From contig NZ_CP117439.1 in assembly GCF_030687575.1 (NCBI RefSeq), positions 4,207,501-4,271,500 on the forward strand: a stretch of 64,000 nt of DNA, read 5' to 3'. Positions 15,933 to 31,265 of this stretch are shown here, in pieces (the first letter of the stretch is position 1; every line of letters starts with the position of its first letter). The notes under the pieces are model-generated. The model searched no databases and had not been told where the DNA came from. It worked only from the letters and a program-made list of their open reading frames with translations. The DNA is from Pseudomonas sp. FP2309. GTDB taxonomy: Bacteria; Pseudomonadota; Gammaproteobacteria; Pseudomonadales; Pseudomonadaceae. Made by a program: the position numbers and the translations under genes.

Positions 15933-16927
15933 TTCCACAGCCCGATTTTGGTCAGCTCTTCCTTGAAGTTCTCGCGGGTGATCAGGGTCACTTCGTCCAT
16001 CGCGGTGTACTTGGGCGGCTCGGTGCCTTTGGTCACCCACTCGTACATCATCAGGGCGGTGTTGTAGCCCTCGATGTGCGGGCTGGGCAGCATGGAACCG
16101 AAGAAGCCGCTGTTGGCCTTTTTCAGCTCGCCGATGGCGTCGGTGCCGTTGATGCCAATCCCGATCACGTTGGCCGCGGCAAAGCCGGCGCTTTCGGTGG
16201 CGCGCACGCCGCCGAGCACGGTGTTGTCGTTCATGCCGCCGATGATCAGGTTTTTCGCGCCGCTGGGCAGCTTGACCAGCGCCGAGTTGGTGGCGTCCAT
16301 GCTGCCGGGCACGTCGAGGGTTTTCAGCGCGGCGGTGAGGATATGGTCCTTGGGAATCCCGGCTTCTTCGAGGGATTTGATCGAGCCGTCGGTGCGTTTT
16401 TTACCGGTGTCGAGTTCGTTGAAGGTGTTGATCACCGCGTAGGTGTCCTTCCAGTCCCAACCGCGTTTTTTCGCTTCGGCAGCCATGGCCGCGCCCTGCT
16501 TCTGGCCCACTTCAAACGCAGCCATGCCCAGGTACGGCACGTCCTCCATAAAGGCGCCCTTGGCGTCGACGAAACGGTCATCCACCGCCATCACCTTCAA
16601 GCCATTGACCTTGGCCTTGGCCACGATGGCCGGGCCCAGGGACACGTCCGGCGGGCAGATCACAAAGCCCTTGGCGCCGTTGGCCGCCAGGCTGTCGATG
16701 GCCGAGAGGGTCTTCTCGCCGTCGGGCACGGCGATCTTGATCACGGTGAAGCCATGTTCCTTGCCGGCTTTTTCGGCAAACGCCCATTCGGTCTGGAACC
16801 AGGGTTCTTCGGCCTGTTTGACCAGGAAGCCGATTTTGACTTCTTCAGCAGCCGATACCACGCCGCTGAACGCCAGGCCGAGTGCCAGGGCACCGAGTGT
16901 CTTTTTGAAGCTGTTTTTGACAAACAT
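15929..16927 (-). CDS. araF: L-arabinose-binding periplasmic protein
   Basis: 332 residues. A signal peptide ending near VVSAA is followed by IGFLVKQAEEPWFQTEWAF, KIAVPDGEKTLSAIDSLAA, GMNDNTVLGGVRATE and ITRENFKEEL, all very close to E. coli AraF. This makes L-arabinose (possibly also D-fucose or galactose, known AraF ligands) the best guess for the substrate. An AGAGGTG site precedes the chosen ATG. Upstream in-frame residues lack signal character. The preceding gene is a sugar-dehydrogenase-like SDR. Confidence 0.95.
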   Translation of the reverse strand: MFVKNSFKKTLGALALGLAFSGVVSAAEEVKIGFLVKQAEEPWFQTEWAFAEKAGKEHGFTVIKIAVPDGEKTLSAIDSLAANGAKGFVICPPDVSLGPAIVAKAKVNGLKVMAVDDRFVDAKGAFMEDVPYLGMAAFEVGQKQGAAMAAEAKKRGWDWKDTYAVINTFNELDTGKKRTDGSIKSLEEAGIPKDHILTAALKTLDVPGSMDATNSALVKLPSGAKNLIIGGMNDNTVLGGVRATESAGFAAANVIGIGINGTDAIGELKKANSGFFGSMLPSPHIEGYNTALMMYEWVTKGTEPPKYTAMDEVTLITRENFKEELTKIGLWK

Positions 16928-16962
16928 GAGGCACCTCTTGTTGTTATTGAGCGTTACACGTT

Positions 16963-17784
16963 CTAGTCGTGGTACATCACAGACCGCCCGCCATCGATCA
17001 TCAGGCAAGTGGCATTGATAAAAGGCGCCTCGTCGGTGGCCAGGAACAGCGCCGTCATCGCCACCTCGATCGGCTGACCGATGCGCTTGGGCGGGTGCAG
17101 ATCGAAGGCGCGCTGGCGCTCGGCGTGCGGGTCGGGAAAACCGTTCCAGTAGTCAACGTTGAGCTGGGTTTCGATATACCCCGGCGCGATGGCATTCACG
17201 CGGAGGCCCTTGGACGCATATTCGATGCCCAGGGCGCGGGTGAGGCCGAGCAAACCATGCTTGGCCACCGGGTACGGAAAACAGCCGGGAATGATGTGAC
17301 TGGAATGGGTGGAGGCGATGTTGATGATGTTGCCAATGCCCTGCTCGATCATGTGCGGCAGCACCGTGCGGCAACCGAACCAGGCACCGTCGAGGTCAAT
17401 GGCGAAACAACGGCGCCAGTCCTCGTCGGTCATTTGCAGCGGGTCGCAAAACACGTTGACGCCCGCGCAGTTGACCAGCACATCCACGCGGCCGAAGCGC
17501 TCGATGGCCGTATTGACCAGTGTCTGCCATTGCACTTTGCACGTGATGTCGACGGCCTGCGCGTAAATGTCAGCGCCACGTTCACGCCAGTGGGCGGCAA
17601 CGCGATCGACCTTTTCAGCCTGGATATCGGCGATGACCAACCGCGCCTGCTGGGCCTGGAAACACGCGACGATCGCCTCGCCAATGCCTTGGGCGGCGCC
17701 GGTGATGATCACCACCTTGCCTTTGAGCCGCTCGCCGTAAGTGGGCTCGGGCACGGCGGGGAGTGACAACGGTTGTGCCTGCAT
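16963..17784 (-). CDS. SDR-family oxidoreductase, probable sugar 1-dehydrogenase
   Basis: 273 residues. The classical SDR pattern is complete: TGAAQGIGEAI cofactor loop, NCAGV, catalytic Ser in IASTHSS, Tyr-x3-Lys in YPVAKHG, and a C-terminal FINATCLMIDGG. Standing first in the araFGH operon, 35 bases before araF, it most simply oxidises the imported aldose to its lactone, the first step of the non-phosphorylative arabinose/galactose pathways found in pseudomonads. The substrate is inference. The lactonase, dehydratase and later steps are not in this window. Confidence 0.8.
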   Translation of the reverse strand: MQAQPLSLPAVPEPTYGERLKGKVVIITGAAQGIGEAIVACFQAQQARLVIADIQAEKVDRVAAHWRERGADIYAQAVDITCKVQWQTLVNTAIERFGRVDVLVNCAGVNVFCDPLQMTDEDWRRCFAIDLDGAWFGCRTVLPHMIEQGIGNIINIASTHSSHIIPGCFPYPVAKHGLLGLTRALGIEYASKGLRVNAIAPGYIETQLNVDYWNGFPDPHAERQRAFDLHPPKRIGQPIEVAMTALFLATDEAPFINATCLMIDGGRSVMYHD

Positions 17785-17828
17785 CGCTTCACCTGTTTTA
17801 TTTTTGGTAGTGAGTGCTGATGCCGCCG

Positions 17829-17858
17829 ACTATAAACCCAGACCCGAAAACATCTCAA
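17829..17858 (-). promoter_or_regulatory. candidate promoter of the SDR-araFGH operon
   Basis: On the minus strand, TTGAGA and TATAGT are separated by 18 bases, about 45 bases before the SDR start codon. Spacing is one base over ideal. Confidence 0.5.
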
Positions 17859-17895
17859 TATATAAATTTGCATCCCATATTGTGAGAGAAAACAC

Positions 17896-17926
17896 AAAAA
17901 AACCGACGCTTTCGGCGCCGGCTTTT
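17896..17926 (-). terminator. terminator after the GNAT gene
   Basis: On the minus strand, a CCG-G-CGC stem pairs with GCG-T-CGG (one G-U pair) around a CGAAA loop and runs into seven T residues, just after the acetyltransferase stop. Its A-rich left side gives some terminator character in the other direction too. Confidence 0.8.
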
Positions 17927-17941
17927 TGAGAGGGCCTTGAA

Positions 17942-18421
17942 TCAACCCAAGGCGAAATCGCGCAACGCGTCGCCTTCCATGCGGTAGCGCACCCACTCTT
18001 CCTGGGGTTGGGCACCGATGGATTTGTAGAAGGCAATGGCTGGCTCGTTCCAGTCCAGCACGCTCCACTCGAAGCGACCGCAACCATTATCAAAGGCGAT
18101 TTTGGCCAAGTGACGCAGCAACTTCTTGCCCGCCCCGCCGCCGCGCTGTTCAGGGTTGATGTAGAGGTCTTCCAGGTACAGGCAGTTGCTGCCAAGCCAG
18201 GTCGAATAGCTGAAAAAGAACACCGCAAAGCCGATCGGCAAACCGTCGCGCAGGCAAATCAGGCCATGGGCGGTGGCCCCTTCGCTGAACAGGCTGCGCT
18301 CGATGTCCACCACACTGGCGATCACTTCATGCCGGGCCTTTTCGTACTCGGCAAGTTCGGTGATGAAAGTCAGAATCTGCGCAGCATCGCTGGGCACCGC
18401 AGGGCGAATCTCGATGGTCAT
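17942..18421 (-). CDS. GNAT N-acetyltransferase, spermidine/diamine acetyltransferase-like
   Basis: 159 residues covering a full GNAT fold. IEIRPAVPSDAAQILTFI begins the domain. YLEDLYINPEQRGGGAGKKLL is the acetyl-CoA loop (Q/RxxGxG/A). WSVLDWNEPAIAFYKSIGA closes it. The LEDLYV/I and WNEPAIAFYKSIGA segments resemble SAT1-type diamine acetyltransferases, so a polyamine or other amine substrate is plausible but unproven. The ATG of MTIEIRP was chosen, since the upstream start adds ten unrelated residues. It is a single gene with its own terminator. Confidence 0.88.
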   Translation of the reverse strand: MTIEIRPAVPSDAAQILTFITELAEYEKARHEVIASVVDIERSLFSEGATAHGLICLRDGLPIGFAVFFFSYSTWLGSNCLYLEDLYINPEQRGGGAGKKLLRHLAKIAFDNGCGRFEWSVLDWNEPAIAFYKSIGAQPQEEWVRYRMEGDALRDFALG

Positions 18422-18607
18422 GGGCAAGCCTTGGGCAATTTCAAAGCACACATACTAAGGCGCTTTGATGACCGATTGCAGCGCAATTTCCGGGGATGCC
18501 GGTTACTCCGCCCGGCCGTAATGCAAGCACCACCAACCACAGAACAAACCTGGCTGGCGTACATGGTAAACAGTGGGCCGTAACTCCAACGACCTCCAGG
18601 CGGCCCC

Positions 18608-19804
18608 ATGCAGTCCACGTCCCCGGTGAGCACAAAGCTGTTCGCGCTGTTTTGCCTTGCCAGCTTTCTGTTGTCGCTGTCTTACGGCTCGACCTTTCTG
18701 CTGTCGCTGTTGATTCATATACGCGGCGGCAATGAGCACGATGCCGGCAGTGTGATCGCCACTGCGATGCTCAGTACCTTTGTGGCGGTCGTGCTGTCCG
18801 GGCATTTGGCGGATGCGTGGGGCGCGGCGCGGGCGATTGCGGGGATGGGTGTATTGCTGGTGGTGGCATGCCTGGGCTTTGCATTGATGCCGGGCTTTGG
18901 CGAAGGCTTGATGTTGTTCGGGCTGGCCCTGGGCCTGGGCTGGGGCGTGTTCTACACCCTGGGACCGATCATCGTGGCCATGCTGGTAGCGCCGCAGCAC
19001 CGCGCTAAATATTTTGCGCTGCTGTCGGGCAGCATGATGAGCGGCATCGGTTCCGGGCCGTTACTCGGCCGGGCGGCCCACGCGTTGGGCCTGCCCTTGA
19101 CCAGCGCTTTCGTCATTGCCGCACTGGCCAGCCTGGTCGGGGTGCTGATGTTCTGGCGCCTGGGCACAGCGCTCAAACGCCACACCTCGGCACCGGTGTC
19201 GAAAATTTCCTGGGTGGCCTGCCGTCGCGTGCTGTCTTCACGGGCGGCATTTGCCATCGTCATGGTCAGCCTCGGCGGCTGCGTGTTTGGTGGGTTGTCG
19301 TCGTTCCAGACCAGCTACGCGGCAGCCCATGGGCTGGATTATTCGTTGTTTTTTGCAGGCTTCGTCAGTGCGGCGATTACCAGTCGCCTGCTGATCGCCG
19401 GTTACGTGGTCAAGCGCGATGCCTACGTGGCCGCCTGCGTGCTGTCCGGGATGATGCTGGGGTCGATCCTGCTGTTCGCCTTTGGCGTGAGTGGCAATGC
19501 CAGCTACCTGTTGGCCGCCGTGACTCTGGGCGTCGGGTATGGCCTGACGTATTCGGTGATCAACGGCCTGGTGGCCAACGAAGCACCCAACGGCACCACG
19601 TCCCAGGCATTGCTGTTGTTCAGCCTGGCGTACTTTGTGGGGGTGTTTGGCTTCCCGTGGCTGGCGGGCTGGATTATCGTCGATTTCGGTTTACCGGCGC
19701 TGATGCTGAGCGTGCTGGCCGTGGCGACCGTTAATTGGTTGATCAGCGTGGCGCGCCTGGCGTGGCGCCGGGCGACAGCACACAAAATCTTACAGGCTGG
19801 CTGA
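18608..19804 (+). CDS. MFS transporter
   Basis: 398 residues with about 12 hydrophobic spans and little outside them, typical of major facilitator proteins. The loop after span 2 is GHLADAWGAARAIAG, a variant of the MFS motif A. The sequence gives no substrate. Recognisable sugar-acid or drug signatures are absent. It ends 85 bases before a set of small genes on the same strand, and the divergent GNAT gene lies on the other side. Confidence 0.85.
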   Translation: MQSTSPVSTKLFALFCLASFLLSLSYGSTFLLSLLIHIRGGNEHDAGSVIATAMLSTFVAVVLSGHLADAWGAARAIAGMGVLLVVACLGFALMPGFGEGLMLFGLALGLGWGVFYTLGPIIVAMLVAPQHRAKYFALLSGSMMSGIGSGPLLGRAAHALGLPLTSAFVIAALASLVGVLMFWRLGTALKRHTSAPVSKISWVACRRVLSSRAAFAIVMVSLGGCVFGGLSSFQTSYAAAHGLDYSLFFAGFVSAAITSRLLIAGYVVKRDAYVAACVLSGMMLGSILLFAFGVSGNASYLLAAVTLGVGYGLTYSVINGLVANEAPNGTTSQALLLFSLAYFVGVFGFPWLAGWIIVDFGLPALMLSVLAVATVNWLISVARLAWRRATAHKILQAG

Positions 19805-19889
19805 GACCGTTCGTCGCCACCCCGGCACCAACGCAAAACGAGGGCGGACCAATACAGGGTAAGGACAATAACCCTAGGGAGACACCCTC

Positions 19890-20228
19890 ATGAAAAATGC
19901 CAAATTTGCTGCCCTCGCCCTCACTGGCCTGCTGTCTGCCGCTTCGCTGAGCGCCTATGCCGCAAGCTCGACCACAGGTCCGACCGACCCAACGCCGGAC
20001 GCCACCACCGAGTCGCAAAAATCCATGGGCACCGGCCTGGATACCAACGGTGGCGCAGTCATCGACAACACCAATGGCGCCGACCCTCGCACCCAGGGCC
20101 ACGACACCCAGCGCCAGGCACCCGCTGCCGTTGGCAATGGCAAGATGGGGCCGTCGGTGAATGAGCCAAAGATCAATAAAGGCGACGACTCGAACCTGCC
20201 CGGCGCGCCAAAGCAACCTGCGCCGTAA
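19890..20228 (+). CDS. small exported hydrophilic protein
   Basis: 112 residues. A clear signal peptide (MKNAKFAALALTGLLSAASLSAYA) is followed by about 88 mostly polar residues rich in Thr, Pro, Asp, Gly and Asn with almost no hydrophobic core, so the mature protein is probably disordered. AGGGAGAC precedes the ATG. I do not recognise the family. It heads a run of three small co-oriented genes with gaps of about 50 bases. The style (hydrophilic, charged, small) recalls stationary-phase or desiccation proteins, but this is only an impression. Confidence 0.7.
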   Translation: MKNAKFAALALTGLLSAASLSAYAASSTTGPTDPTPDATTESQKSMGTGLDTNGGAVIDNTNGADPRTQGHDTQRQAPAAVGNGKMGPSVNEPKINKGDDSNLPGAPKQPAP

Positions 20229-20279
20229 GCCCTCGAACGCAAGACGAACACCCGATCATTTCCCAGTGAAGAGGTACGC

Positions 20280-20546
20280 ATGAACGTCGATAGAACCCTT
20301 GAAAAAGAAGTCCTCACCCGCCTGCTGCACGCCCACCCGCAAGGCTTGGGCAAGGAGGTGCTGGACAACTACCGCGGCGAAAAGGAAGTGGCCGGCGTGT
20401 TGGCCTTCCTGCAGGACCGCGGGCTGATCAAGGATGGTCATGTGACCACCGACGACTCCGGCGAATATTCGTTGAATCTACCGATCAAGCTGACTGCGTC
20501 GGGTGTAGATGAGGCGCGCAAGCTGGAAGGCGAGCGCCCTCAGTAA
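20280..20546 (+). CDS. small protein of unknown function, winged-helix-like
   Basis: 88 residues, soluble. The pattern is helical (LEKEVLTRLLHAHPQGL), then KEVAGVLAFLQDRGLIKDG, then a short beta hairpin ending NLPIKLTASGVDEARKL. This is the helix-helix-wing arrangement of small winged-helix domains with a trailing helix. No enzymatic motif. A GAAGAGG site precedes the ATG. It sits between the small exported protein and the Rho_N/SAP-type protein and may be co-transcribed with both. A DNA-binding role is inference. Confidence 0.65.
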   Translation: MNVDRTLEKEVLTRLLHAHPQGLGKEVLDNYRGEKEVAGVLAFLQDRGLIKDGHVTTDDSGEYSLNLPIKLTASGVDEARKLEGERPQ

Positions 20547-20595
20547 TCCATTTTGTCTGGTCCGGCCCTGTTACAGGGCCGGAAGGAGTATCGCG

Positions 20596-20976
20596 ATGCC
20601 TCGTGGAAGCAAAGCCAAATACACCCCCGAACAAAAGCGCAAGGCCGCGCATATCGAAGACAGTTACGAACACAAGGGCGTGCCCGCTGCCGAGGCCGAA
20701 GCCCGTGCCTGGGCCACCGTCAACAAGCAATCCGGCGGTGGCGAAAAGGCCGGTGGCTCGGGCCGGCGCAAGGCACCAATGAAAAAGGCTCAGGACCGCA
20801 GTGACTCGGCCAAACGCGCGGCGGCCAGCCGCGAGGGTCATCCTCGCAGCAGCCGAGTCTCATTGGGCACTCAGACTAAAGAAAGCCTGATGAAGGAAGC
20901 GCGCGCCAAGGATATTCCCGGGCGCTCGAGCATGCGCAAGGCTGAGTTGATTGAAGCGCTGAAAAAGGCCGGCTGA
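20596..20976 (+). CDS. basic protein with C-terminal Rho_N/SAP-like domain
   Basis: 126 residues, very Lys/Arg-rich. Residues 1-45 (YTPEQKRKAAHIEDSYEHKG, AEAEARAWATVNKQ) look like the plasmid-stabilisation/ChaB-like segment often found in Pseudomonas proteins of this type. A flexible basic linker follows. The last 35 residues (TKESLMKEARAKDIPGRSSM, RKAELIEALKKAG) form a Rho N-terminal or SAP-type helix-extended-helix nucleic-acid-binding motif. The ATG follows GGAAGGAG. It probably binds DNA or RNA. The cellular role is unknown. Confidence 0.75.
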   Translation: MPRGSKAKYTPEQKRKAAHIEDSYEHKGVPAAEAEARAWATVNKQSGGGEKAGGSGRRKAPMKKAQDRSDSAKRAAASREGHPRSSRVSLGTQTKESLMKEARAKDIPGRSSMRKAELIEALKKAG

Positions 20977-21069
20977 CACGCCTCGCGGTGTAAGCGGCCT
21001 GATGCCAGTCAGAGAGCAAGAAGCACCCTGTGCCCACCGTTAATTGATGGGCATTTGCGCTCGCCTTGC

Positions 21070-21990
21070 TCACGCCTCAGCTACTAACGCATCCACCTCG
21101 CAGGTTGCGGGGCACGTCGCCGGTCCCCAACGCGTCACCGCCAACGCCGCCGCCGCATTCGCCCGGCGTGCGGCTTGGGCAGATTTCAAGCCGTTGGCCA
21201 ACCCCGCAATAAACACCCCCGCATGGGCATCGCCCGCGCCATTGCTGTCCACGGCCTCAACCTCGAAACCCGGCACGTGCTCGATCTGCTCCGCACGCCC
21301 GACCAGGCATCCATTCGGCCCGTCGCGCACCACCAGCAGTGTGTTGGCGGGCAGATGCCGGCTTAACGCAGGCAACGCGGTGGCAATGTCCGATGCACCG
21401 GTAAACGCCAGCGCTTCCGGACCATTGCTGGTCCAGATGTCGATGCGCGGCAGTAAGCGGCGCATCAAGGCCGAATCCGGGGCTTTGACCAACGGGCCCG
21501 GATCGAATACCACCGCGATGCTGTGCGGCAATGCCAGTAACCAGTCGAGCAACGGCTGGGCCTTGCCCTCGAGCAGCAAGCTGTAGCCGCTGACATAAAC
21601 GTAGTCGTCCGCACGCGGCACTATGGGCGCCAAGTCCTCGGCACTGAGTTCACCCTCGGCACCGAGGTGGGAAATAAACGTGCGCTCGGTGGTGGCTTCG
21701 GTCAGGGACACACATAAACCGGTGTCCTTGCCGCGGCTTGGCGCGAGGGCCATGTCAATGCCCTCAGCCTGCATCGCAGTGCGCGCCAGGTCGCCGAAGC
21801 GACCCTCGCCATGACGCCCCAGGTAAACCACCGGCAAGCCATTGCGTCGGGCTGCGGCCATCACATTGAACCCGCCGCCCACTTCAAAATTGGCCGAATG
21901 CGCCAGCACATCGCCACCGCTGGCGGGTAAGGCATCAAGGGCCATGACCAGGTCGACGATGACCTGGCCCGTGTGCAGCAATCTAGACAT
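21070..21990 (-). CDS. PfkB-family carbohydrate/nucleoside kinase
   Basis: 306 residues. The N-terminal GQVIVDLVMALDALPASGG and GGGFNVMAAARRNG region and the C-terminal anion-hole and catalytic-base motif DSNGAGDAHAGVF are PfkB/ribokinase signatures. It should phosphorylate a sugar or nucleoside hydroxyl with ATP. The start overlaps the end of the NCS1 permease gene by eight bases. It is the last gene of the GntR/ADP-ribosylglycohydrolase/permease operon, so the substrate is probably a released pentose or a nucleoside imported by the permease. The exact substrate cannot be read from sequence. Confidence 0.9.
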   Translation of the reverse strand: MSRLLHTGQVIVDLVMALDALPASGGDVLAHSANFEVGGGFNVMAAARRNGLPVVYLGRHGEGRFGDLARTAMQAEGIDMALAPSRGKDTGLCVSLTEATTERTFISHLGAEGELSAEDLAPIVPRADDYVYVSGYSLLLEGKAQPLLDWLLALPHSIAVVFDPGPLVKAPDSALMRRLLPRIDIWTSNGPEALAFTGASDIATALPALSRHLPANTLLVVRDGPNGCLVGRAEQIEHVPGFEVEAVDSNGAGDAHAGVFIAGLANGLKSAQAARRANAAAALAVTRWGPATCPATCEVDALVAEA

Positions 21991-23449
21991 TGTGGCTCTC
22001 TACCAGCGCCGGCCGCCGGTCGGCCGCGCCGCCCAGTACCGCATAAATCCCGCCGGCCACCAGGAAGGTGACGATCCAGCCCAGGCCGTTGTGGCCCAGC
22101 CAGGAGTCGGACAGCGGCCCGGCGAACCAGATATTTTCGGCGGTGGTGCCGATGGTGGTGAAGCAAAAGCCCAGCACGATGGCCACGGCCCAGGCACCGA
22201 AGGCTCGCCATTCCACGCCGCCGCGATACCAGTAGGCACTGCTTGGGCTGACGTCGAGCAGGTCCTTGGGGCTGTAGTAATGACGATGAATCAGGTCAAC
22301 CACGAAGATCCCGACCCACGCGGTGATCGGCACCGCCAGCAGCGAAATGAAGGTGATGAACGGGCCGTAGAAACTGTCGGCGATCAGCATGAAGTAAATC
22401 GACCCGGCAAAAATCGCCACGATATCGACGATCACCGCGTGCACGCGCTTGACCTTCAAACCCAGGGTCAAGGTGGTGAGACCGGCCGAATACACCGACA
22501 GGTTGTTCGACAGCAGCAGGCCGCCGAATGCGGTGATCAGGTACGGCACAGCCATCCAGGTCGGCAGCATGTCGCGGATCGCGATGATTGGGTCGGTGGC
22601 CGAGGCCAGGTCATTGTTGCCCACCGACAGCAGGCCACCGAGGGTGATCAGCAGTACCAGAGGAATGCCCGCGCCAAACGCCGCGGAGGCCACCAGGCGC
22701 GCGGCCTTGACGCTGCGGTGTTGGTAGCGCGACATATCGGCGCCGGCGTTGGCCCAACCGATACCGGTGCCGGCCGCCATGGTGCCGACGCCGATGATCA
22801 TCGCGCTCAGCGGCGCGGGGGTGGCGTTGAACACCGCGCTCCAGTCAATGGTGGCACAGAGGAAGCCGCCCACCAGGATATTCAAAGCGCCGAATACGTA
22901 GGTGGCCCACTTCTGGATCACCAGCAGGGTGGCGTGGCCGAGGCCGGAAACGGCCAGGGTGAGCAGCACGAAAATGGCGATGAAAATCAGCGTCAGCACG
23001 GGTGCGCTTTTCGCCTCCACCGGCGACCCGAAGAGAATCGAACACAACGACAGCAACACAAACGCCGCCGTGGTGGTGTTGACGGTTTCCCAACCCAGGC
23101 GCGACATCAGCGACACCAGTGTCGGGCCAATATTGCCGCGCACGCCGAAGATGGCACGGGACAAGGTCAGGCTCGGTGCACGGCCACGACGACCGGCGAT
23201 GGAGATGATGCCCACCACCGCAAAGGAACCGGCCGCGCCGAGGATCGCCACAATAATCGCCTGCCAGATCGCCAAGCCCCGGAACGCCACCAGCGTGGCC
23301 CCAAGCGGTAAGCCGAGGATGCTGATGTTGGCAGCGAACCACACCCAGAACAGTTGCAACGGATGGCCGTTGCACTCGCCTTCCGGGACCGGTTCGATGC
23401 CGCGTGTTTCCAATTGTCCGGCGCTTTGGCCGGAAGACGTGCTGCTCAT
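21983..23449 (-). CDS. NCS1-family purine/pyrimidine or nucleoside permease
   Basis: 488 residues with about 12 membrane spans. The N-terminal GIEPVPEGECNGHPLQLFWVWF and LGLPLGATLVAF segments, GRRGRAPSLTLSRAIFG, and WANAGADMSRYQ (about residue 245) are typical of the CodB/purine-cytosine-permease branch of NCS1 transporters, which import nucleobases, nucleosides or related compounds with H+ or Na+. It is the third gene of the operon, 72 bases after the ADP-ribosylglycohydrolase gene, and is coupled to the kinase gene. Confidence 0.88.
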   Translation of the reverse strand: MSSTSSGQSAGQLETRGIEPVPEGECNGHPLQLFWVWFAANISILGLPLGATLVAFRGLAIWQAIIVAILGAAGSFAVVGIISIAGRRGRAPSLTLSRAIFGVRGNIGPTLVSLMSRLGWETVNTTTAAFVLLSLCSILFGSPVEAKSAPVLTLIFIAIFVLLTLAVSGLGHATLLVIQKWATYVFGALNILVGGFLCATIDWSAVFNATPAPLSAMIIGVGTMAAGTGIGWANAGADMSRYQHRSVKAARLVASAAFGAGIPLVLLITLGGLLSVGNNDLASATDPIIAIRDMLPTWMAVPYLITAFGGLLLSNNLSVYSAGLTTLTLGLKVKRVHAVIVDIVAIFAGSIYFMLIADSFYGPFITFISLLAVPITAWVGIFVVDLIHRHYYSPKDLLDVSPSSAYWYRGGVEWRAFGAWAVAIVLGFCFTTIGTTAENIWFAGPLSDSWLGHNGLGWIVTFLVAGGIYAVLGGAADRRPALVESHNV

Positions 23450-23521
23450 GAGGTGTTGCTCCTGGTGCCTGTATTTTTGTGGTTGTGGCAGGTCGTCAAC
23501 GCTGTGACTGGTCGTCCTGAC

Positions 23522-24523
23522 TCATCGCATTTTCAGAAGGTTTTCAACCAATGGCTGCAAGTCCAACCCATTGACGGCCTTGACCTGTTCGATCATTGCC
23601 GCAGGCCAGCACTGCATGCCGAAACACGCGCCAAGCATCGCGCCGAGCATCGCCGCGATGGTGTCGGTGTCGCCCCCCAGGCTGGCGGCCAGGCACAACG
23701 CCTGGAACGCGTTCATATCCCCCACCGCCACTTGCTGGGCCAGGGCAAACGACACCACCACCGACTCCTGGGAGGCCACGGAAGTGCCGATCAATTCATA
23801 GAGCAGGTCGGCAAACAACGCGGTGTCGCCACTGCCCACACTGAGGGTGCGCGCCCAACTGATGCGAGTGGAAATACGCCCGCCGGCCACCCAATGCCCG
23901 TGACCTTCCGCCTGTTGGGCGATCTGGGTACCAATGTTCAGCGCTTCGCCCAGGTCCGCACCGTTGATGCCGGCGGACACCACCGCCGCCACCGCTGCCG
24001 CACTGGAAATGCCCAGGGTGGTGTTGTGGGTGACTTGGCACGCCTGGATCACCGCCTGGATAAACTGCGCCGGGTCGCTGACATCGACGGCGATGCCCAC
24101 CGGCGTGATGCGCATGGCGGCACCATTGGTGCTGCCGTAGCGCCCGGACTCCTGCGGAGTATGCCCGGCGAGGATCATGTCGATGGCACGCTTGGTGGAC
24201 GGACCAAGCAGATCCTGAGAACCCTTGGCGCGCATCGTCGCTTCCCAGTCGATCAGGCGCTGGGCAAGCACGGCAGGTTCGATCCTGCCTTGGCCTTCGA
24301 CCAGCAACTGGCCAACCAGAATCGCCTGCTCAGTGTCATCGGTGATGGAACCGGCCGGCATGTTCGGGGCGATCGGCTGGTCGGCGCCGGCCTTCTCAAG
24401 GGCGGTAATGGCACCAAAGCGCTGTTGCACTTGCTCACGGCTCAGGGATTGGGTGGGCATGCCCAAGGCATCGCCCAGGGCCAAACCGTAGAAGGCGCCG
24501 AGGGCGCGGGCGTGGGCGGTCAT
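23522..24523 (-). CDS. ADP-ribosylglycohydrolase-family protein
   Basis: 333 residues. Both metal-binding motifs of the DraG/ARH fold are intact: AFYGLALGDALGMPT with SITDDTEQAI near residues 60-68, and the C-terminal SLGGDTDTIAAMLGAMLGA. The family cleaves N- or O-glycosidic ribosyl bonds using two Mg ions, classically on ADP-ribosylated proteins. Members outside that role hydrolyse small ribosides. The ATG overlaps the gntR stop by four bases, so the long N-terminal extension in the same frame was rejected. Its place between a regulator and a permease/kinase pair argues for a small-molecule nucleosidase role (inference). Confidence 0.9.
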   Translation of the reverse strand: MTAHARALGAFYGLALGDALGMPTQSLSREQVQQRFGAITALEKAGADQPIAPNMPAGSITDDTEQAILVGQLLVEGQGRIEPAVLAQRLIDWEATMRAKGSQDLLGPSTKRAIDMILAGHTPQESGRYGSTNGAAMRITPVGIAVDVSDPAQFIQAVIQACQVTHNTTLGISSAAAVAAVVSAGINGADLGEALNIGTQIAQQAEGHGHWVAGGRISTRISWARTLSVGSGDTALFADLLYELIGTSVASQESVVVSFALAQQVAVGDMNAFQALCLAASLGGDTDTIAAMLGAMLGACFGMQCWPAAMIEQVKAVNGLDLQPLVENLLKMR

Positions 24524-25233
24524 TTCGAGGGTCCAAATTGCAGGTGCAGGCGAAAGTGCACAGGGTCGAGCAAGCTTTCGACGTACTCCATGAACCGCTC
24601 GCGACGGTCGTACGTAGTACGCGACGCCTTGAGAAACACGCAGCCTGCCGGGCGACCAAGCAGTTCGGCATCCTCGTCGCTCAGGGGTTCGGCGCCGATC
24701 CATTGGTCACCTTCGGCGCCGATGTAGCCGTAGGCTGCCAGGGTGATGGTCAGGGAGTCATCGATCAGCCCCAAACGAGGCAGGCTTTCAAGGCCGCCGG
24801 ACGCCGGCATCAGCGAACGCTCCAGGGACACGGCAGTGCCATCGGTGGTGCGTCGACGGCGGTCAAGGGCGACAAATTGGTCAGTGCCGAAACGACTGAA
24901 CAGATCGGGACGCGACACCGCTTCCAGGCGCAGGATATCGGTGGTCACCAGGGCACCGGTGTCGGCCAGCGCCTGGGCCCAACCACTGGTTTGATCCAGC
25001 ACCATGCCGTCAAAGGTGACGATGGAGCCGACACCGCTCTGGGTCGCAATGTAATTGCGTCGCTTGAGCTCGGCGAGAGCTTCGCGCAGGGTGCCACGAC
25101 TGACCGCAAACTCTTCGGCCAATTGATGCTCGCCCGGCAACAGGAAGCCGTCGGCCATCACCCCACCCTCGATACGGCGGATGAGTTCGTCGACGACGCG
25201 TTTTTTCTTATCAAATCGGACATGTCTAATCAT
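24520..25233 (-). CDS. GntR-family (HutC/UTRA type) transcriptional regulator
   Basis: 237 residues from the ATG. An in-frame TTG two codons earlier is also possible. Residues 1-70 are the GntR winged helix (DGFLLPGEHQLAEEFAVSRG, TLREALAELKRRNYI). Residues 85-235 are a UTRA ligand-binding domain (ALDRRRRTTDGTAVSLERSL, WIGAEPLSDEDAELL, GCVFLKASRTTYDRRERFMEY). It is the first gene of the operon, so it is probably an autoregulator sensing the imported compound or its phosphate. Confidence 0.9.
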   Translation of the reverse strand: MIRHVRFDKKKRVVDELIRRIEGGVMADGFLLPGEHQLAEEFAVSRGTLREALAELKRRNYIATQSGVGSIVTFDGMVLDQTSGWAQALADTGALVTTDILRLEAVSRPDLFSRFGTDQFVALDRRRRTTDGTAVSLERSLMPASGGLESLPRLGLIDDSLTITLAAYGYIGAEGDQWIGAEPLSDEDAELLGRPAGCVFLKASRTTYDRRERFMEYVESLLDPVHFRLHLQFGPSK

Positions 25234-25235
25234 GT
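25220..25235. promoter_or_regulatory. possible GntR operator
   Basis: ACATG-N6-CATGT is a perfect 5-base inverted repeat, and CATGT also recurs directly at a 10-base step. It overlaps the gntR start codon. Short arms make this tentative. Confidence 0.3.
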
Positions 25236-25303
25236 ACAAATTGATAACCGAAAGCGGCCTTTTGCAGCAAGCGAATTATGTCAGGGAGATGAAAAACCCG
25301 GCC

Positions 25304-25864
25304 TCAGGGCTCCAGGCCGATACGGAAAAATTCGCCGCCGCTCCAGACGCCCAGCCACTTCTGACCGTTGATCGGGCGGCTCACCGCCAACTCCACCAAT
25401 TGGTAGAACACATTGCGATGTACGAGAGCTTCAAGGTTGGCGCGCACCCGAAGATAGGGTGACGGTTCCTCGGTGATGGGGTCGATCTCCACCCGCAGCG
25501 GGTGTTCGAGGCCGGCTTCGATCTGTTCATCGACATTGCTGGTAAAACGCAGTACCTGATCTTCGCCCTGCCCTTCGACGTCGAGGGTTACCGCGACAAA
25601 GGGCGCGTCATCGACGCTGATACCGACTTTTTCTACCGGTGTGACCAGAAAGTAATCATCGCCATCGCGGCGGATGATATTAGAGAACAACTTGACCATC
25701 GGCTTGCGCCCGATTGGCGTGCCTTGGTAGAACCAAGTGCCATCGCGGGCGATGCGCATATCGATGTTGCCGCAGAAATCCGGGTTCCACAGGTGCACCG
25801 GCGCCGGCCCCTTGCCTTTGGGCAGTTGGGCCAGCAGGTCGTTGGCCTTGGCGGAATCGGTCAT
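25304..25864 (-). CDS. DUF1285 domain protein
   Basis: 186 residues, soluble. [20 protein letters not shown] followed by [20 protein letters not shown] is the DUF1285 hallmark, and the domain runs to about residue 180. Known members bind small ligands in a beta-rich fold, but no activity is established. It is 27 bases downstream of the DUF4823 lipoprotein gene on the same strand, so the two may be an operon. Part of the core Pseudomonas gene set in my judgement. Confidence 0.85.
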
Positions 25865-25891
25865 GAGAGGCTCCCCTTATTCAGGCTGGGC

Positions 25892-26497
25892 TCACTGATC
25901 ACTCATACCCAGCAGGCTCCGGGCGTACTGTGCCAACGGGCGGGCAATCAGATCTTGTGGCGTGTTGTCGTGGAACGTCAGTAAACCGCCACGACTGCGA
26001 ATACGTGCAGTATCAATCAAATACTGGGTGCTGGTCTCGATCAACATGATCTGGATAACGCCGCTGTCCAGGCCCACACGGTCGAGGGCCTCTTGATCGG
26101 CCCACTCATCGGCATTGCCGATACGGTCGTCCGCCTTGGCGAAGCGGCAGTACAGCAAGTAATGCGCCCCCGCCGCACGGGCTTCGGCCATGGCTTGCTC
26201 GAGGCCTTCAGGCTGTCGCGCGCGGCGCACCATGGGGAAATATTCAACGAAGCCGTTGAAGGCTTCTTCGGCCACCACGTTAGGCCGTGGGTAGGCGCTG
26301 CCCGGCGGCACGAAGGCGCCCTGGGCGATAAAGACGAAGGAGTCCGGCTGTATGCGAACCGAGGCGGTACGACGGGTATCGCTATGGTCGAGCAGCCCGG
26401 CGTCGCTCATCTGATAGCGGGTGCCTTCGGCCATATCGCTGACGGTCATGCAACCACTGAGCGTCAATGACGCCAGCAACAAAACCAGACTACGCAT
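25892..26497 (-). CDS. DUF4823-type lipoprotein
   Basis: 201 residues from the ATG of MRSLVLLLASLTLSGC, which has a GGAGG site and a lipobox LSGC (Cys16). Upstream in-frame residues lack a signal. The mature part (about 17-200) is a compact alpha/beta domain with VVAEEAFNGFVEYFPMVRRA and AHYLLYCRFAKADDRIG segments, matching the DUF4823 family of gamma-proteobacterial lipoproteins with TolB- or CsgG-like fold character. Function unknown. Followed by the DUF1285 gene. Confidence 0.8.
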   Translation of the reverse strand: MRSLVLLLASLTLSGCMTVSDMAEGTRYQMSDAGLLDHSDTRRTASVRIQPDSFVFIAQGAFVPPGSAYPRPNVVAEEAFNGFVEYFPMVRRARQPEGLEQAMAEARAAGAHYLLYCRFAKADDRIGNADEWADQEALDRVGLDSGVIQIMLIETSTQYLIDTARIRSRGGLLTFHDNTPQDLIARPLAQYARSLLGMSDQ

Positions 26498-26569
26498 CCT
26501 AATCCTCCAAAAGCCAGTGACGGAAAACCGGCGAATGGGCGTGAGATGCAGCTTTTGGGCCAGGGGAGC

Positions 26570-26587
26570 CGCTTGCAGCTGCAAGCG
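26570..26587. terminator. perfect 18-base palindrome between moaA and the lipoprotein gene
   Basis: CGCTTGCAGCTGCAAGCG is fully self-complementary, six bases after the moaA stop. It lacks a T-run. The same CTTGCAGCTGCAAG theme occurs as an extragenic repeat at about 11.3 kb, so it may be a repeat that has come to serve as a transcript end. Confidence 0.5.
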
Positions 26588-26592
26588 CGGCG

Positions 26593-27561
26593 TCAGCCGC
26601 CGATGATCTTCATGATGGTGGCGCCCCCGGAGAAGGCCACTTCCTGCTTGTCGCCGAGGGCTTTCACCAGCAAGCCTTGCAAGGCCGGCAGTGCTTGATG
26701 GCGCGGTTTGTCGAGCAGGTCACCGACGTAGTGACGATTGCTCGACGACAGGCAGCCATGCAGCCAGCCGGTGGACGACAACCGCAGCCGCGAACAGGTC
26801 CGGCAGAACGGCACACTTTCGTTGGCAATCACGCCAAAGAAGCCCTTACCCGGCACCTCGTACCGTACCGCCGTGGCATCCACCGGGGCGTTGGCCTGCA
26901 AGTATTCGTGGTGTTCGCCGATCAGGCTGAGCAGTTGCTGCAGGCTGACAAATTGCTGCAGAAACGCGTTGGAATCCTTGGCCAGGTGGCCCATACGCAT
27001 CAACTCGATAAACCGCAGCTCGTAGCCACGCTCCAGGCAGTAGTCGAGCAGCGGCATCACCTGGTCCAGGTTCTGGCCACGCAAGGGCACCATATTGACC
27101 TTGATCTTGATCCCGGCAGCTCGGGCCTGGTCCATGCCGTCGAGCACGGTGGCCAGGTCGCCGCCACGGGCGATGCTGCGAAAAGCGTCGGCATCGAGAG
27201 TGTCGAGGGATACGTTGATGCGCCGAATGCCGGCGTCCACCAGCAGCGGCAGTTTGCGCGCCAGCAATTGGCCGTTGGTCGTCAGACTGATATCACTGAG
27301 GCCCATCTGCCCGACGGCGCCCATGAAGGCTTCCAGCTTGGGGCTCACCAAGGGTTCACCGCCAGTGATACGCAAACGGTCGATACCGGCCGCTTCGATC
27401 AGGTAAGCCACACCACGGGCCATGGCCTCGGCCGAGAGTTCGTCCTGGGCAGCCACCAGCCGCTTGCCGTTGGGCACGCAGTAGGTACACGCGTAATTGC
27501 AGGCTGAGGTCAGGCTGATTCGCAAATTGCGAAAACGCCTGCCTTGACGATCAACGATCAT
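26593..27561 (-). CDS. moaA: GTP 3',8-cyclase (molybdenum cofactor biosynthesis)
   Basis: 322 residues. A radical-SAM enzyme that starts molybdopterin synthesis by rearranging GTP. The N-terminal cluster ligands Cys21, Cys25, Cys28 are in TSACNYACTYCVP. The C-terminal substrate-binding cluster has Cys253, Cys256, Cys270 with the MoaA spacing CxxC-x13-C. The GTP-binding RxLR-type basic stretch RTCSRLRL is present, and the protein ends in the double glycine typical of MoaA. No other moa genes are nearby, so it may be one of two copies, as in P. aeruginosa. Confidence 0.93.
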   Translation of the reverse strand: MIVDRQGRRFRNLRISLTSACNYACTYCVPNGKRLVAAQDELSAEAMARGVAYLIEAAGIDRLRITGGEPLVSPKLEAFMGAVGQMGLSDISLTTNGQLLARKLPLLVDAGIRRINVSLDTLDADAFRSIARGGDLATVLDGMDQARAAGIKIKVNMVPLRGQNLDQVMPLLDYCLERGYELRFIELMRMGHLAKDSNAFLQQFVSLQQLLSLIGEHHEYLQANAPVDATAVRYEVPGKGFFGVIANESVPFCRTCSRLRLSSTGWLHGCLSSSNRHYVGDLLDKPRHQALPALQGLLVKALGDKQEVAFSGGATIMKIIGG

Positions 27562-27593
27562 GGATCACTCCGGCAGAGGATAATTGGGGCGCA

Positions 27594-27623
27594 CTAAAAG
27601 CTGACTTATAAATCAGCTTTTAG
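27594..27623. terminator. palindromic terminator between tetR and moaA
   Basis: CTAAAAGCTGA and TCAGCTTTTAG are perfect 11-base arms with an eight-base AT-rich loop, downstream of the TetR gene and upstream of moaA on the minus strand. Confidence 0.7.
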
Positions 27624-27675
27624 CAAGGTCCATGCCTGAGTATATTCCTGGGGTACTGCGCCAAGCAGCAAATCA

Positions 27676-28344
27676 TTACGTGGCAGGGGTGTCGACAGGT
27701 GCGGCCTCGACCGGTGCAGGCTCGGCGCTATGCTTGCGTTTGTTGCCCATGCGCACGCCAATGTCCATCAAGAACTGGAAGAAACCTTCCTGGTCTTCCA
27801 GCACATTGCTCCAGAACGGCGAGTGGTACAGCGCAACGGCGCCATGCACCAGGGCCCAGGCGGCGCAATAGTGGAAATACGGCGGCACGTCTTCAAGCTT
27901 GCCTTCGCTGATACGACCTTTGATCAGCAGCGTCAGGCGTTCGAAGTTCGAAGCACGGATCTTGTGCAACTCCTCGACCATCTCCGGCACCTGATGCCCC
28001 TTGACCACCTTCTCTTCCAGACGGTCGAACAAGCGGTAGCGCTGCGGGTCACGCATGCGAAACTCGAAGTAGGCACGGGACAAGGCTTCCTTATCCTTGT
28101 CGACATCGGCCGAATGCAGCAACGTGTTCAAGTCGCGCTCGTAGTCGAGCATCAGGCGCAGGTAAATCTCGGCCTTGGACTTGAAGTGTTTGTAGATCGT
28201 GCCTTTGCCGATACCCACGGCATCCGCGATCATCTCAACGGTAACGCTGTCTTCGCCCTGTTCGAGGAACAATTTGAGTGCGGTATCGAGAATTTCCTGC
28301 TCACGGCGGCGAAACTCACGGACCTTACGGGGTTCTTTGTGCAT
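27676..28344 (-). CDS. TetR-family transcriptional regulator
   Basis: 222 residues. N-terminal TetR helix-turn-helix (REQEILDTALKLFLEQGEDS, VTVEMIADAVGIGKGTIYKHF). The ligand domain has a FRMRDPQRYRLFDRLEEKVV helix. The last 20 residues are an acidic, Pro/Ala-rich tail. It corresponds in position to PA2957 of P. aeruginosa, next to tatD. The regulon and ligand are not evident. It is transcribed away from the small RNA listed downstream. Confidence 0.92.
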   Translation of the reverse strand: MHKEPRKVREFRRREQEILDTALKLFLEQGEDSVTVEMIADAVGIGKGTIYKHFKSKAEIYLRLMLDYERDLNTLLHSADVDKDKEALSRAYFEFRMRDPQRYRLFDRLEEKVVKGHQVPEMVEELHKIRASNFERLTLLIKGRISEGKLEDVPPYFHYCAAWALVHGAVALYHSPFWSNVLEDQEGFFQFLMDIGVRMGNKRKHSAEPAPVEAAPVDTPAT

Positions 28345-28651
28345 GAGGAAGAGGTCTGCAAAGGTCGTAGTAGGGAGGGTTACGCAAGGCCACGATTACA
28401 TGGCGATACGATTTACCAGGTGCGAGGGATTATCCCGACTGAACGGTCGTTGGGCAACGCCTATGTGAACCCGGCAGGCACTTACTTTCAGCACGCCAAC
28501 GTTTTTACCCGAATCAGTCAGAAATAACACGCACCAACTACCCCTGTACTCCCGCCCAATGAGAACTCAAGCGAAGCTGACGTATTCCAAATCTGTTTAA
28601 AAAACGATCAGTCGCGACTGGACTGAATCAGATACTGATCAATACTTGAAC
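28345..28651. other. intergenic region upstream of tetR and the small RNA
   Basis: About 300 bases without a gene. It must hold the tetR promoter on the minus strand and the small-RNA promoter on the plus strand. CGACTGAACGGTCG near 28436 is a short inverted repeat (CGAC/GTCG) that could be an operator. Repeated ACTGA/ACTGAT words cluster at 28596-28640. PA2958 of P. aeruginosa has no counterpart here. Confidence 0.5.
28641..28646 (+). promoter_or_regulatory. -10 box of the RgsA-like RNA (RpoS type)
   Basis: CAATACT (from 28640) lies about seven bases before the inferred RNA start. It resembles the sigma-S -10 pattern (C)TATACT with the preferred C at -13, and no good -35 box accompanies it, which is common for RpoS promoters. 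Confidence 0.5.
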
Positions 28652-28771
28652 TGTTGGCGTGACATCTCCCCCAAGTGAAGCGCCAACCTGGGTACCGACG
28701 GACTGTGTGCCCTTGTTTTTACTCCTAATGGTCTTAACCCGGATTCCCCCCCCAGAACCCGGGTTTTTTTT
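28652..28771 (+). ncRNA. rgsA: RgsA-like small regulatory RNA
   Basis: Between tetR (PA2957-like) and tatD (PA2959-like), where P. aeruginosa encodes the Gac/RpoS-linked RNA RgsA of about 120 nt. A 5' hairpin has perfect arms TTGGCG (28654-28659) and CGCCAA (28681-28686) with CATCTCCCCCAAGTG in the loop. The 3' end is an intrinsic terminator with AACCCGG/CCGGGTT arms (28736-28742, 28759-28765) and eight T residues to 28771. An RpoS-like -10 box precedes the start, so the whole unit is about 120 nt. The identity rests on synteny, length and structure. The exact 5' end is inferred. Confidence 0.75.
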
Positions 28772-28792
28772 GCCCGCGATTTGACCCGAGCC

Positions 28793-29578
28793 TTACGCGG
28801 CGACGTGGGCCAATGGAAACAGACGCTTGAAATTCTCGGTGGTCTGTTCGGCGAACCGCTCATAGGACTCACCGCGCAACATCGCCAGGTACTCTGCGAC
28901 ATCACGCACATACTCCGGCAGGTTCGGCTTGCCGCGATGGGGGATGGGCGCCAGGTACGGCGAGTCGGTCTCCACCAGAAGACGATCCACCGGCACTTGC
29001 CGCGCCACGTCACGCAGGGCGTCGGCATTGCGGAAGGTGACGATGCCCGATAAGGAAATATAGAACCCCAGGTCCAGGGCGGCTTTGGCCATGTCCCAGT
29101 CTTCGGTGAAGCAATGCAACACCCCGGCCTGGGGTAAAGCGGCCTCGCGTAAGAGGCTCAGGGTGTCGGCGCGGGCGCCGCGGGTATGGACGATCACCGG
29201 TTTGCCGGTCTGCTGAGCGGCTAGCAGGTGCAAACGGAAGGATGCCTGCTGCAACTCGGCGGCCTCAGGCTCGTAGTGGTAATCCAGACCGGTCTCGCCA
29301 ATGGCCACCACACGTGGATGGTTGACCTCACCCAACAGCCAGTCGAGCGCCGGGGCTTCGCCGGGCTTGAGGTCCAGCGGGTGGATACCCACCGAGCAAT
29401 CCACGTCCGAATAGCGATCCGCCAGGGCTTTGACGTCAGCGGCGTTGTCGGCGCTGACGCCGATGCACAGGAAGTGCCCGACCCCGCGCTGCCGAGCGGC
29501 GTCCAGCGCAGCATCGAGGGAACCGCCATGCTGGGCGAGGTCAAGGCGATCAAGGTGGCAATGGGAATCTACGAGCAT
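28793..29578 (-). CDS. tatD: TatD-family metal-dependent hydrolase
   Basis: 261 residues, normal length. Metal ligands in DSHCHLD (His6, His8), GETGLDYHYE and VIVHTRGA, and the C-terminal VETDSPYLAP are the TatD signatures. TatD-type proteins are Mg-dependent 3'-5' nucleases or deaminase-fold hydrolases. The gene is the last of the tmk-holB-tatD run. In other Pseudomonas a pilZ gene stands just upstream, but here only a 63-base gap is seen. Confidence 0.95.
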   Translation of the reverse strand: MLVDSHCHLDRLDLAQHGGSLDAALDAARQRGVGHFLCIGVSADNAADVKALADRYSDVDCSVGIHPLDLKPGEAPALDWLLGEVNHPRVVAIGETGLDYHYEPEAAELQQASFRLHLLAAQQTGKPVIVHTRGARADTLSLLREAALPQAGVLHCFTEDWDMAKAALDLGFYISLSGIVTFRNADALRDVARQVPVDRLLVETDSPYLAPIPHRGKPNLPEYVRDVAEYLAMLRGESYERFAEQTTENFKRLFPLAHVAA

Positions 29579-29641
29579 AGGAAGTTACGACTTAGGTCTC
29601 GAAAAGTGTCTGACCGACGATACACCCGTCGGCCACCGAAA

Positions 29642-31265
<1,624 letters not shown>

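Follow-up and report, generated by a model that had tools for sequence, protein, structure and literature searches.

A GntR, ADP-ribosylglycohydrolase, NCS1 permease and PfkB kinase operon in Pseudomonas sp. FP2309 as a possible riboside catabolic unit

Introduction

What does an enzyme with the ADP-ribosylglycohydrolase (ARH) fold accomplish when its gene is part of an operon that also encodes a permease and a sugar kinase? This question is raised by a 64,000-nucleotide stretch of DNA from Pseudomonas sp. FP2309 (contig NZ_CP117439.1, positions 4,207,501 to 4,271,500; the whole stretch is referred to here as the window), whose genome consists of a single contig of 5.66 Mb. Members of the ARH family are mostly interpreted through ADP-ribosylation; the module described here, which numerous soil bacteria and Escherichia coli K-12 (yegTUV) carry, points to a catabolic role for one ARH clade. 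We tentatively propose that the window operon is a self-contained catabolic unit for a small riboside in which phosphorylation precedes hydrolysis, a reading that may well hold but that we stop short of calling probable. Gene order, conservation, the ARH clade and the residue patterns are its demonstrated part.

Organization of the Operon

The first gene of the operon (24520..25233; this and the other three genes lie on the minus strand) encodes a GntR-UTRA regulator of 237 amino acids in which both the helix-turn-helix domain (PF00392; 54.4 bits) and the UTRA domain (PF07702; 43.4 bits) are present, as befits a GntR/HutC member. It is followed by the genes for an ARH-fold hydrolase (23522..24523; 333 amino acids; PF03747, 197.3 bits), for an NCS1-family permease, the presumed importer (21983..23449; 488 amino acids; PF02133, 187.5 bits against a cut-off of 23.5), and for a PfkB-family kinase, a predicted riboside kinase (21070..21990; 306 amino acids; PF00294, 145.6 bits). 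The Pfam matches of all four proteins exceed their cut-offs. Adjacent genes overlap by 4 bases at the GntR/ARH junction and by 8 bases at the NCS1/PfkB junction, and a gap of 72 bases separates ARH from NCS1. A mechanical list of open reading frames (ORFs) starts the ARH gene at 24703, but we prefer the ATG at 24523 because the 120 listed homologues are mostly 332-343 amino acids long. The ARH is the sole PF03747 match in the host genome, and the operon kinase is one of ten PfkB matches.

These coordinates and domain matches bear out what the first-pass annotation of this DNA had described, namely four minus-strand genes with two overlapping junctions (4 and 8 bases) and a UTRA-type GntR regulator in first position; the TDDT and GGDTDT motifs of the ARH and the GAGDAH motif of the kinase are intact, as it had stated. 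Its placement of the permease in the nucleobase/nucleoside branch of NCS1 proteins could not be established, however: the protein is an NCS1 member by PF02133 but reaches 65 bits with the subfamily model TIGR00800, whose cut-off is 353.1, and no solved structural homologue was found at E 1e-3.

Conservation of the Module

In Pseudomonadota, Actinomycetota and Bacillota, the ARH and PfkB genes form a conserved pair with a patchy distribution. In a set of named genomes with one genome per species, at least 589 stretches matched, 509 of which were confirmed, and the 80 best were retained; as these 80 loci were picked by ARH similarity, their counts describe this clade and not ARHs in general. Forty-four of them are from Pseudomonas and 34 were read as Actinomycetota, with Roseospira and Caballeronia also represented. 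By single-sequence search the four-gene set is complete in 68 of the 80 loci. A profile search, which recovered a kinase that the single-sequence search had missed (L259), places PfkB within about 2 kb of the ARH gene in 78 loci, on the same strand in each of them (78/78), and the two loci lacking it (L211 and L255) are both truncated by a contig end. The nearest named ARH proteins (about 90% identity) are those of Pseudomonas species (P. poae, P. cedrina, and others).

A search at the level of the host's family yielded an ARH match at E 1e-3 in 40 of 248 genomes, 21 of them strong (at least 459 bits, host included). Nineteen of the 20 strong loci besides that of the window were inspected, and all 19 show the genes in the same order, GntR-ARH-NCS1-PfkB; a weaker match (L051 in genome G029) belongs to a YegT-YegU-YegV set instead. 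Seven of the 34 NCS1 matches in a phylum-wide sample of 398 genomes are close (at least 818 bits), and these come from the host, five congeners and one member of family f191. In the family of genome G758, among whose members yegTUV-type loci occur, 79 of 198 genomes have a PF03747 match. The linkage thus reaches well beyond close strains, patchy though the operon is, and the gene set named in the first-pass annotation withstands the gene-neighborhood comparison.

The ARH Enzyme and Its Clade

With a PF03747 score above the cut-off, the aspartate motifs of the metal site and the characteristic fold, the window protein is a member of the ARH superfamily, and its structural matches are DraG and ARH3. 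In a phylogenetic tree, a 100/97 branch separates 29 clade rows from the annotated draG gene product of L185; the tree has long branches, and L184 is possibly misplaced. Three positions set the clade apart: T132 is found in 30/30 clade rows where 44 of 45 other ARHs have G, P108 in 30/30 against 1/45, and R220 in 30/30 against 2/45. The stretch corresponding to residues 188-246 is longer in the clade (54-67 residues) than in 44 of the 45 other ARHs (30-50 residues). We discounted the T that precedes NGAxM in 80/80 of the named-genome loci, since this motif had been the search pattern for that set. The module ARHs are thus a clade apart from DraG with the signature P108, T132 and R220, residues that let genome annotation separate two kinds of ARH.

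Could the enzyme nevertheless turn over free ADP-ribosyl compounds or ADP-ribosylated protein in the manner of DraG, ARH1 and ARH3? The fold, the metal motifs and the structural match to DraG and ARH3 speak for such a role, but its operon encodes a permease and a sugar kinase alongside it, and the protein reaches 92.2 bits with the DraG equivalog model TIGR02662 (cut-off 337.05) and lies in a separate clade. No ADP-ribosyltransferase (DraT included) is encoded by the eight flanking genes tested against Pfam, a set that does not cover every ORF. We consider ADP-ribosyl turnover highly unlikely; the small-molecule role that had been proposed at the outset, in place of protein de-ADP-ribosylation, is supported by the gene linkage and by the separation of the clade from the named DraG.

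Exchange of the Importer

We surveyed 16 hand-picked regions of a plasmid collection in which 98 records matched the ARH and 300 the NCS1 protein. Among these relatives the importer is swapped (NCS1, nucleoside-H+ symporter [NHS], ATP-binding cassette [ABC] or MFS_2) while the enzyme pair stays. The order ARH-NCS1-PfkB was seen again in Paraburkholderia, Plesiomonas, Photobacterium and Lactiplantibacillus; Mesorhizobium, Rhizobium, Paracoccus and Burkholderia stagnalis combine ARH and PfkB with an ABC importer of four genes; Pantoea, Vibrio and Salmonella resemble E. coli in having a YegT-like symporter; and MFS_2 permeases are encoded in L179 and L183. PfkB is present in 16 of 20 loci with clade ARHs (the four without it being L116, L124, L186 and L182) and in 3 of 15 loci with non-clade ARHs, each time more than 3 kb away. 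A phosphotransferase system (PTS) adjoins the ARH gene, with PfkB not found, in Enterococcus (L116), in Listeria (L124) and on a Klebsiella plasmid (L186). As a PTS phosphorylates its substrate on import, these ARHs would act after phosphorylation.

Two of these regions have further peculiarities. The enterobacterial L183 (4270-9685) combines a divergent MFS_2 permease with GntR, ARH, a SIS protein and PfkB, and looks like a mix of the module and the frl (fructoselysine) layout. L186 (1062-6785) holds a mannose-class PTS, two amidohydrolase-annotated genes, a clade ARH and GntR. An equation of the Listeria ARH of L124 with PDB entry 8za7 (Lmo0067) proved wrong; the title of that entry names a toxin effector-immunity pair, and it reaches no more than 68 bits with the clade profile.

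The variety of importers bears on the nature of the substrate, which might be another furanosyl or an Amadori-type glycoside rather than a ribofuranoside and be processed by the same kinase and hydrolase logic. Consistent with this, clade ARHs adjoin PTS and MFS_2 importers, the SIS gene of L183 stands between ARH and PfkB in a manner resembling the E. coli frl layout, and the best NCBIfam match of the L179 kinase is fructokinase (354.9 bits, under the cut-off of 450). In the ARH tree, however, the PTS and MFS_2 rows are found outside the branch of the window, where the importer is NCS1, and outside the yegTUV branch, where it is a nucleoside-H+ symporter (YegT, 612.8 bits). A non-ribofuranoside is, in our estimate, an unlikely substrate of the window operon.

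The Kinase in Comparison with Ribokinase

The best NCBIfam match of the window kinase is ribokinase (TIGR02152), but with 104.5 bits it falls short of the cut-off of 299.65. The host possesses a separate ribokinase that scores 363.2 bits, above this cut-off, and whose gene adjoins that of the only PF01156 nucleoside hydrolase of the genome (G000 C1:3647323-3649657). We compared 15 kinases from NCS1-, NHS- and ABC-type loci with E. coli RbsK. All 15 keep D16, N46 and D255; all 15 carry a hydrophobic residue in place of N14 and have K43 and E143 replaced or missing (I, a gap and G, respectively, at N14, K43 and E143 in the window kinase). The separate host ribokinase keeps the N, K and E residues. 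Among 78 kinases from named genomes, N14 is kept in 0, K43 in 0, E143 in 2, D16 in 78, N46 in 77 and D255 in 77, counts taken from a fixed-length alignment in which single columns may shift. If N14, K43 and E143 contact ribose in RbsK, as we presume, their loss would leave a pocket suited to a C1-substituted ribose. The residue after GAGDx is His in 77 of the 78 module kinases and Phe in five of the seven other distinct host PfkB proteins that were aligned.

These observations affect a second order of events, in which the ARH splits the imported riboside to free ribose and the PfkB protein, acting as a ribokinase, then forms ribose 5-phosphate. In its favor are the ribokinase match just mentioned and the fact that the kinase of a staphylococcal gene trio (see below) is named ribokinase in the tables of PMC3900703 and PMC3321955. 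Yet the window kinase has none of the three RbsK residues and about one third of the ribokinase cut-off score, the host already owns a ribokinase above the TIGR02152 cut-off, and the PTS-linked ARHs would follow phosphorylation. We regard hydrolysis as the first step as rather doubtful.

A Proposed Riboside 5-Phosphate Route

In the phosphorylation-first route that we favor, the NCS1 permease would import a riboside, the PfkB kinase would phosphorylate the intact riboside at its 5-hydroxyl, and the ARH with its metal site would hydrolyze the glycosidic bond of the riboside 5-phosphate to yield ribose 5-phosphate, which would enter central metabolism, and the free aglycone. The GntR-UTRA protein would repress the operon until the substrate or an intermediate binds. 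An ADP-ribosyl group contains, as its distal phosphoribosyl half, the equivalent of a riboside 5-phosphate, so that the ARH fold need only lose its adenylate requirement. Three lines of evidence lead us to favor the kinase as the first enzyme: the kinase residues, the PTS-linked ARHs without PfkB, and a sister-operon kinase that acts on the intact aminoimidazole riboside (AIRs). Common beta-nucleosides and ADP-glucose are disfavored as substrates by the separate nucleoside hydrolase and ribokinase of the host and by the lack of a GlgC above the cut-off.

Several points weigh against this reading. We infer the substrate class, the order of the steps and the repression, and the ribose-contacting roles of N14, K43 and E143 are our presumption. 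By profile, the window kinase is still nearest to ribokinase. The kinase tree divides into the same two halves as the ARH tree, and the two are congruent in the yegTUV half, but they disagree for Burkholderia stagnalis, Paracoccus and Paraburkholderia, in the half of the window, and they do not establish a single kinase clade spanning both halves of the module. The beta-glucoside- and mannose-class PTS partners suggest hexose compounds, not ribosides, in those relatives. At L182 (5618-7719), a YegU-like ARH is accompanied by a divergently oriented GntR, PfkB is not found within 14 kb, and the locus gave no match to the single PTS query used either. The module is also sparse, as 45 of 369 genomes of a class-wide sample have some ARH match and the host alone exceeds 69 bits. 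Of the initial proposal of riboside import followed by splitting or phosphorylation, the small-molecule catabolic unit is supported, the solute may be a nucleoside, and the kinase residues and the PTS loci favor phosphorylation first.

A broader idea, possible but less probable than not by a clear measure, is that the module represents a widespread unrecognized pathway whose ARH-clade enzyme has turned from ADP-ribosyl removal to the hydrolysis of the phosphoriboside made by PfkB, with an alpha-riboside as a possible substrate. The alpha configuration is suggested by the ligands of solved ARH3 complexes, which are alpha-linked (alpha-NAD+ and alpha-O-methyl-ADP-ribose, according to PDB entry titles), together with the anomeric inversion during ADP-ribosyl transfer described in a passage of the review PMC8883491. 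Such an alpha-riboside could stem from the breakdown of, for example, cobamides, NAD or ADP-ribosyl-amino acids and could be unusable by the ordinary beta-nucleoside enzymes.

Related Systems

Pseudouridine catabolism by PsuT-PsuK-PsuG proceeds by import, phosphorylation of the intact nucleoside and cleavage of the 5-phosphate. The window operon would resemble it in having an importer, a PfkB kinase acting on the intact nucleoside and a 5-phosphate cleavage if the favored order is right, but PsuG cleaves a C-glycoside and has a fold other than that of ARH; its family (PF04227) has no match in the host genome.

In E. coli, the yegTUV genes with yegW (ggaR) comprise an ARH of the same clade as that of the window, adjacent to PfkB and accompanied by a GntR-UTRA regulator, with identities to the window proteins of 33% (ARH), 29% (PfkB) and 29% over 160 amino acids (GntR-UTRA). 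The two systems differ in the transporter, YegT being a nucleoside-H+ symporter and that of the window an NCS1 protein, and in the regulator, which is on the opposite strand in E. coli and the co-directional first gene in the window. yegTUV is repressed by YegW/GgaR (PMC10819704), and from GgaR a role in ADP-glucose or glycogen metabolism has been inferred. Section 3.6 of PMC10819704 reports that ADP-glucose releases GgaR from DNA while glucose and ADP do not, and Table 1 of PMC6195507 lists yegV among glycogen-deficient or glycogen-less mutants on ADP-glucose plates. These three compounds are the only ones reported in that section 3.6, with no nucleoside among them; moreover, the transporter of the window operon differs, and the best GlgC score in the host is 35.2 bits against a cut-off of 424.9, which 7 of 14 control genomes pass. 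Without a GlgC above the cut-off, ADP-glucose is unlikely to be the common substrate, and we hold a role of this kind for the window operon to be very improbable indeed.

A third relative is the Salmonella operon, in which we take STM4065 to be a permease and STM4068 a GntR regulator. Four look-alike loci (L178-L181) likewise have GntR and ARHs of the large clade of the window; L179 differs in its MFS_2 permease and in its kinase, which scores 501 bits to 1tyy, in our understanding an AIRs kinase, against 40 bits for the window kinase. According to the relevant passage of PMC3161100, by whose description and not by sequence we draw the comparison, STM4065-4066-4067 joins ARH and PfkB in one operon; its kinase uses the intact riboside AIRs as phosphate acceptor, for which the passage cites Dougherty and Downs (2003). 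The same text records that an STM4067 (ARH) mutant is attenuated in pig gut samples, which is compatible with the use of a gut metabolite. AIRs salvage for thiamine, as reported for STM4066, would be suggested for the window by this shared gene pair and by the location of thiD and thiM near E. coli yegTUVW. The window kinase, however, reaches 58.1 bits with NF006957 (cut-off 450), against 354.9 for the 1tyy relative of L179; no thiamine gene is present among the eight flanking genes tested, and at the gathering score positions 16000-30000 gave no thiamine riboswitch, RgsA being the sole match. AIRs salvage is thus improbable here, marginally more so than ADP-ribosyl turnover.

The staphylococcal trio lies in the J3 region of SCCmec elements and has genes named ARH, permease and ribokinase, the same names in the same order, the permease being assigned to the cytosine/purine family (Table 3 of PMC3321955; Table 1 of PMC3900703); the likeness is one of table annotation, in rows that name no GntR and in passages that state no function. 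The window operon therefore belongs to a known, functionally unsolved kind, and the functional reading would be the new part. No paper in the open-licence library searched joined 'ADP-ribosylglycohydrolase', 'PfkB' and 'NCS1', and no substrate for an ARH of this type was found in related papers there. The label 'uncharacterized' of the first-pass annotation calls for some qualification, as yegTUV/GgaR and STM4065-4067 are in print and the SCCmec trio is on record as annotation, although no established substrate was found for the ARHs of these relatives. Hydrolysis of a riboside 5-phosphate would offer concrete, testable chemistry for genes that the abstract of PMC10819704 still called without clear function in 2024.

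Promoter Region and Flanking Genes

Immediately 5' of the GntR start codon lies the block TATCAATTTGTAC (25234..25246, minus strand), which is identical in 14 of 21 aligned loci (the window counted) and which, on grounds of this conservation, is a candidate promoter/operator. Its candidacy is weak because no match to the sigma-70 consensus promoter was found in 20900-25400. Two open frames on the plus strand (21842-23311, 489 amino acids; 23354-24727, 457 amino acids) run antisense to NCS1 and ARH and are interpreted as shadow frames of GC-rich genes.

No additional neighbor that might hint at the substrate is widespread in 44 loci outside Pseudomonas. A short-chain dehydrogenase-type protein is encoded near the module in seven of them (L114, L234, L244, L246, L247, L256 and L263), perhaps by chance, this family being very large; the remaining unlabelled neighbor groups resemble frames on the opposite strand or close relatives. 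In the window, a gene for a small Rho_N-domain protein (20509-20976, plus strand; 25.7 bits) converges with PfkB and has a homologue in 11 of 20 related loci. Upstream of the operon are genes for a DUF1285 protein (25307-25864, minus strand), which immediately precedes GntR in 12 of 20 related loci, and for a DUF4823 protein (25895-26512, minus strand). Farther on, the window contains a full-length RgsA small RNA (28568-28762, plus strand; 185.8 bits).

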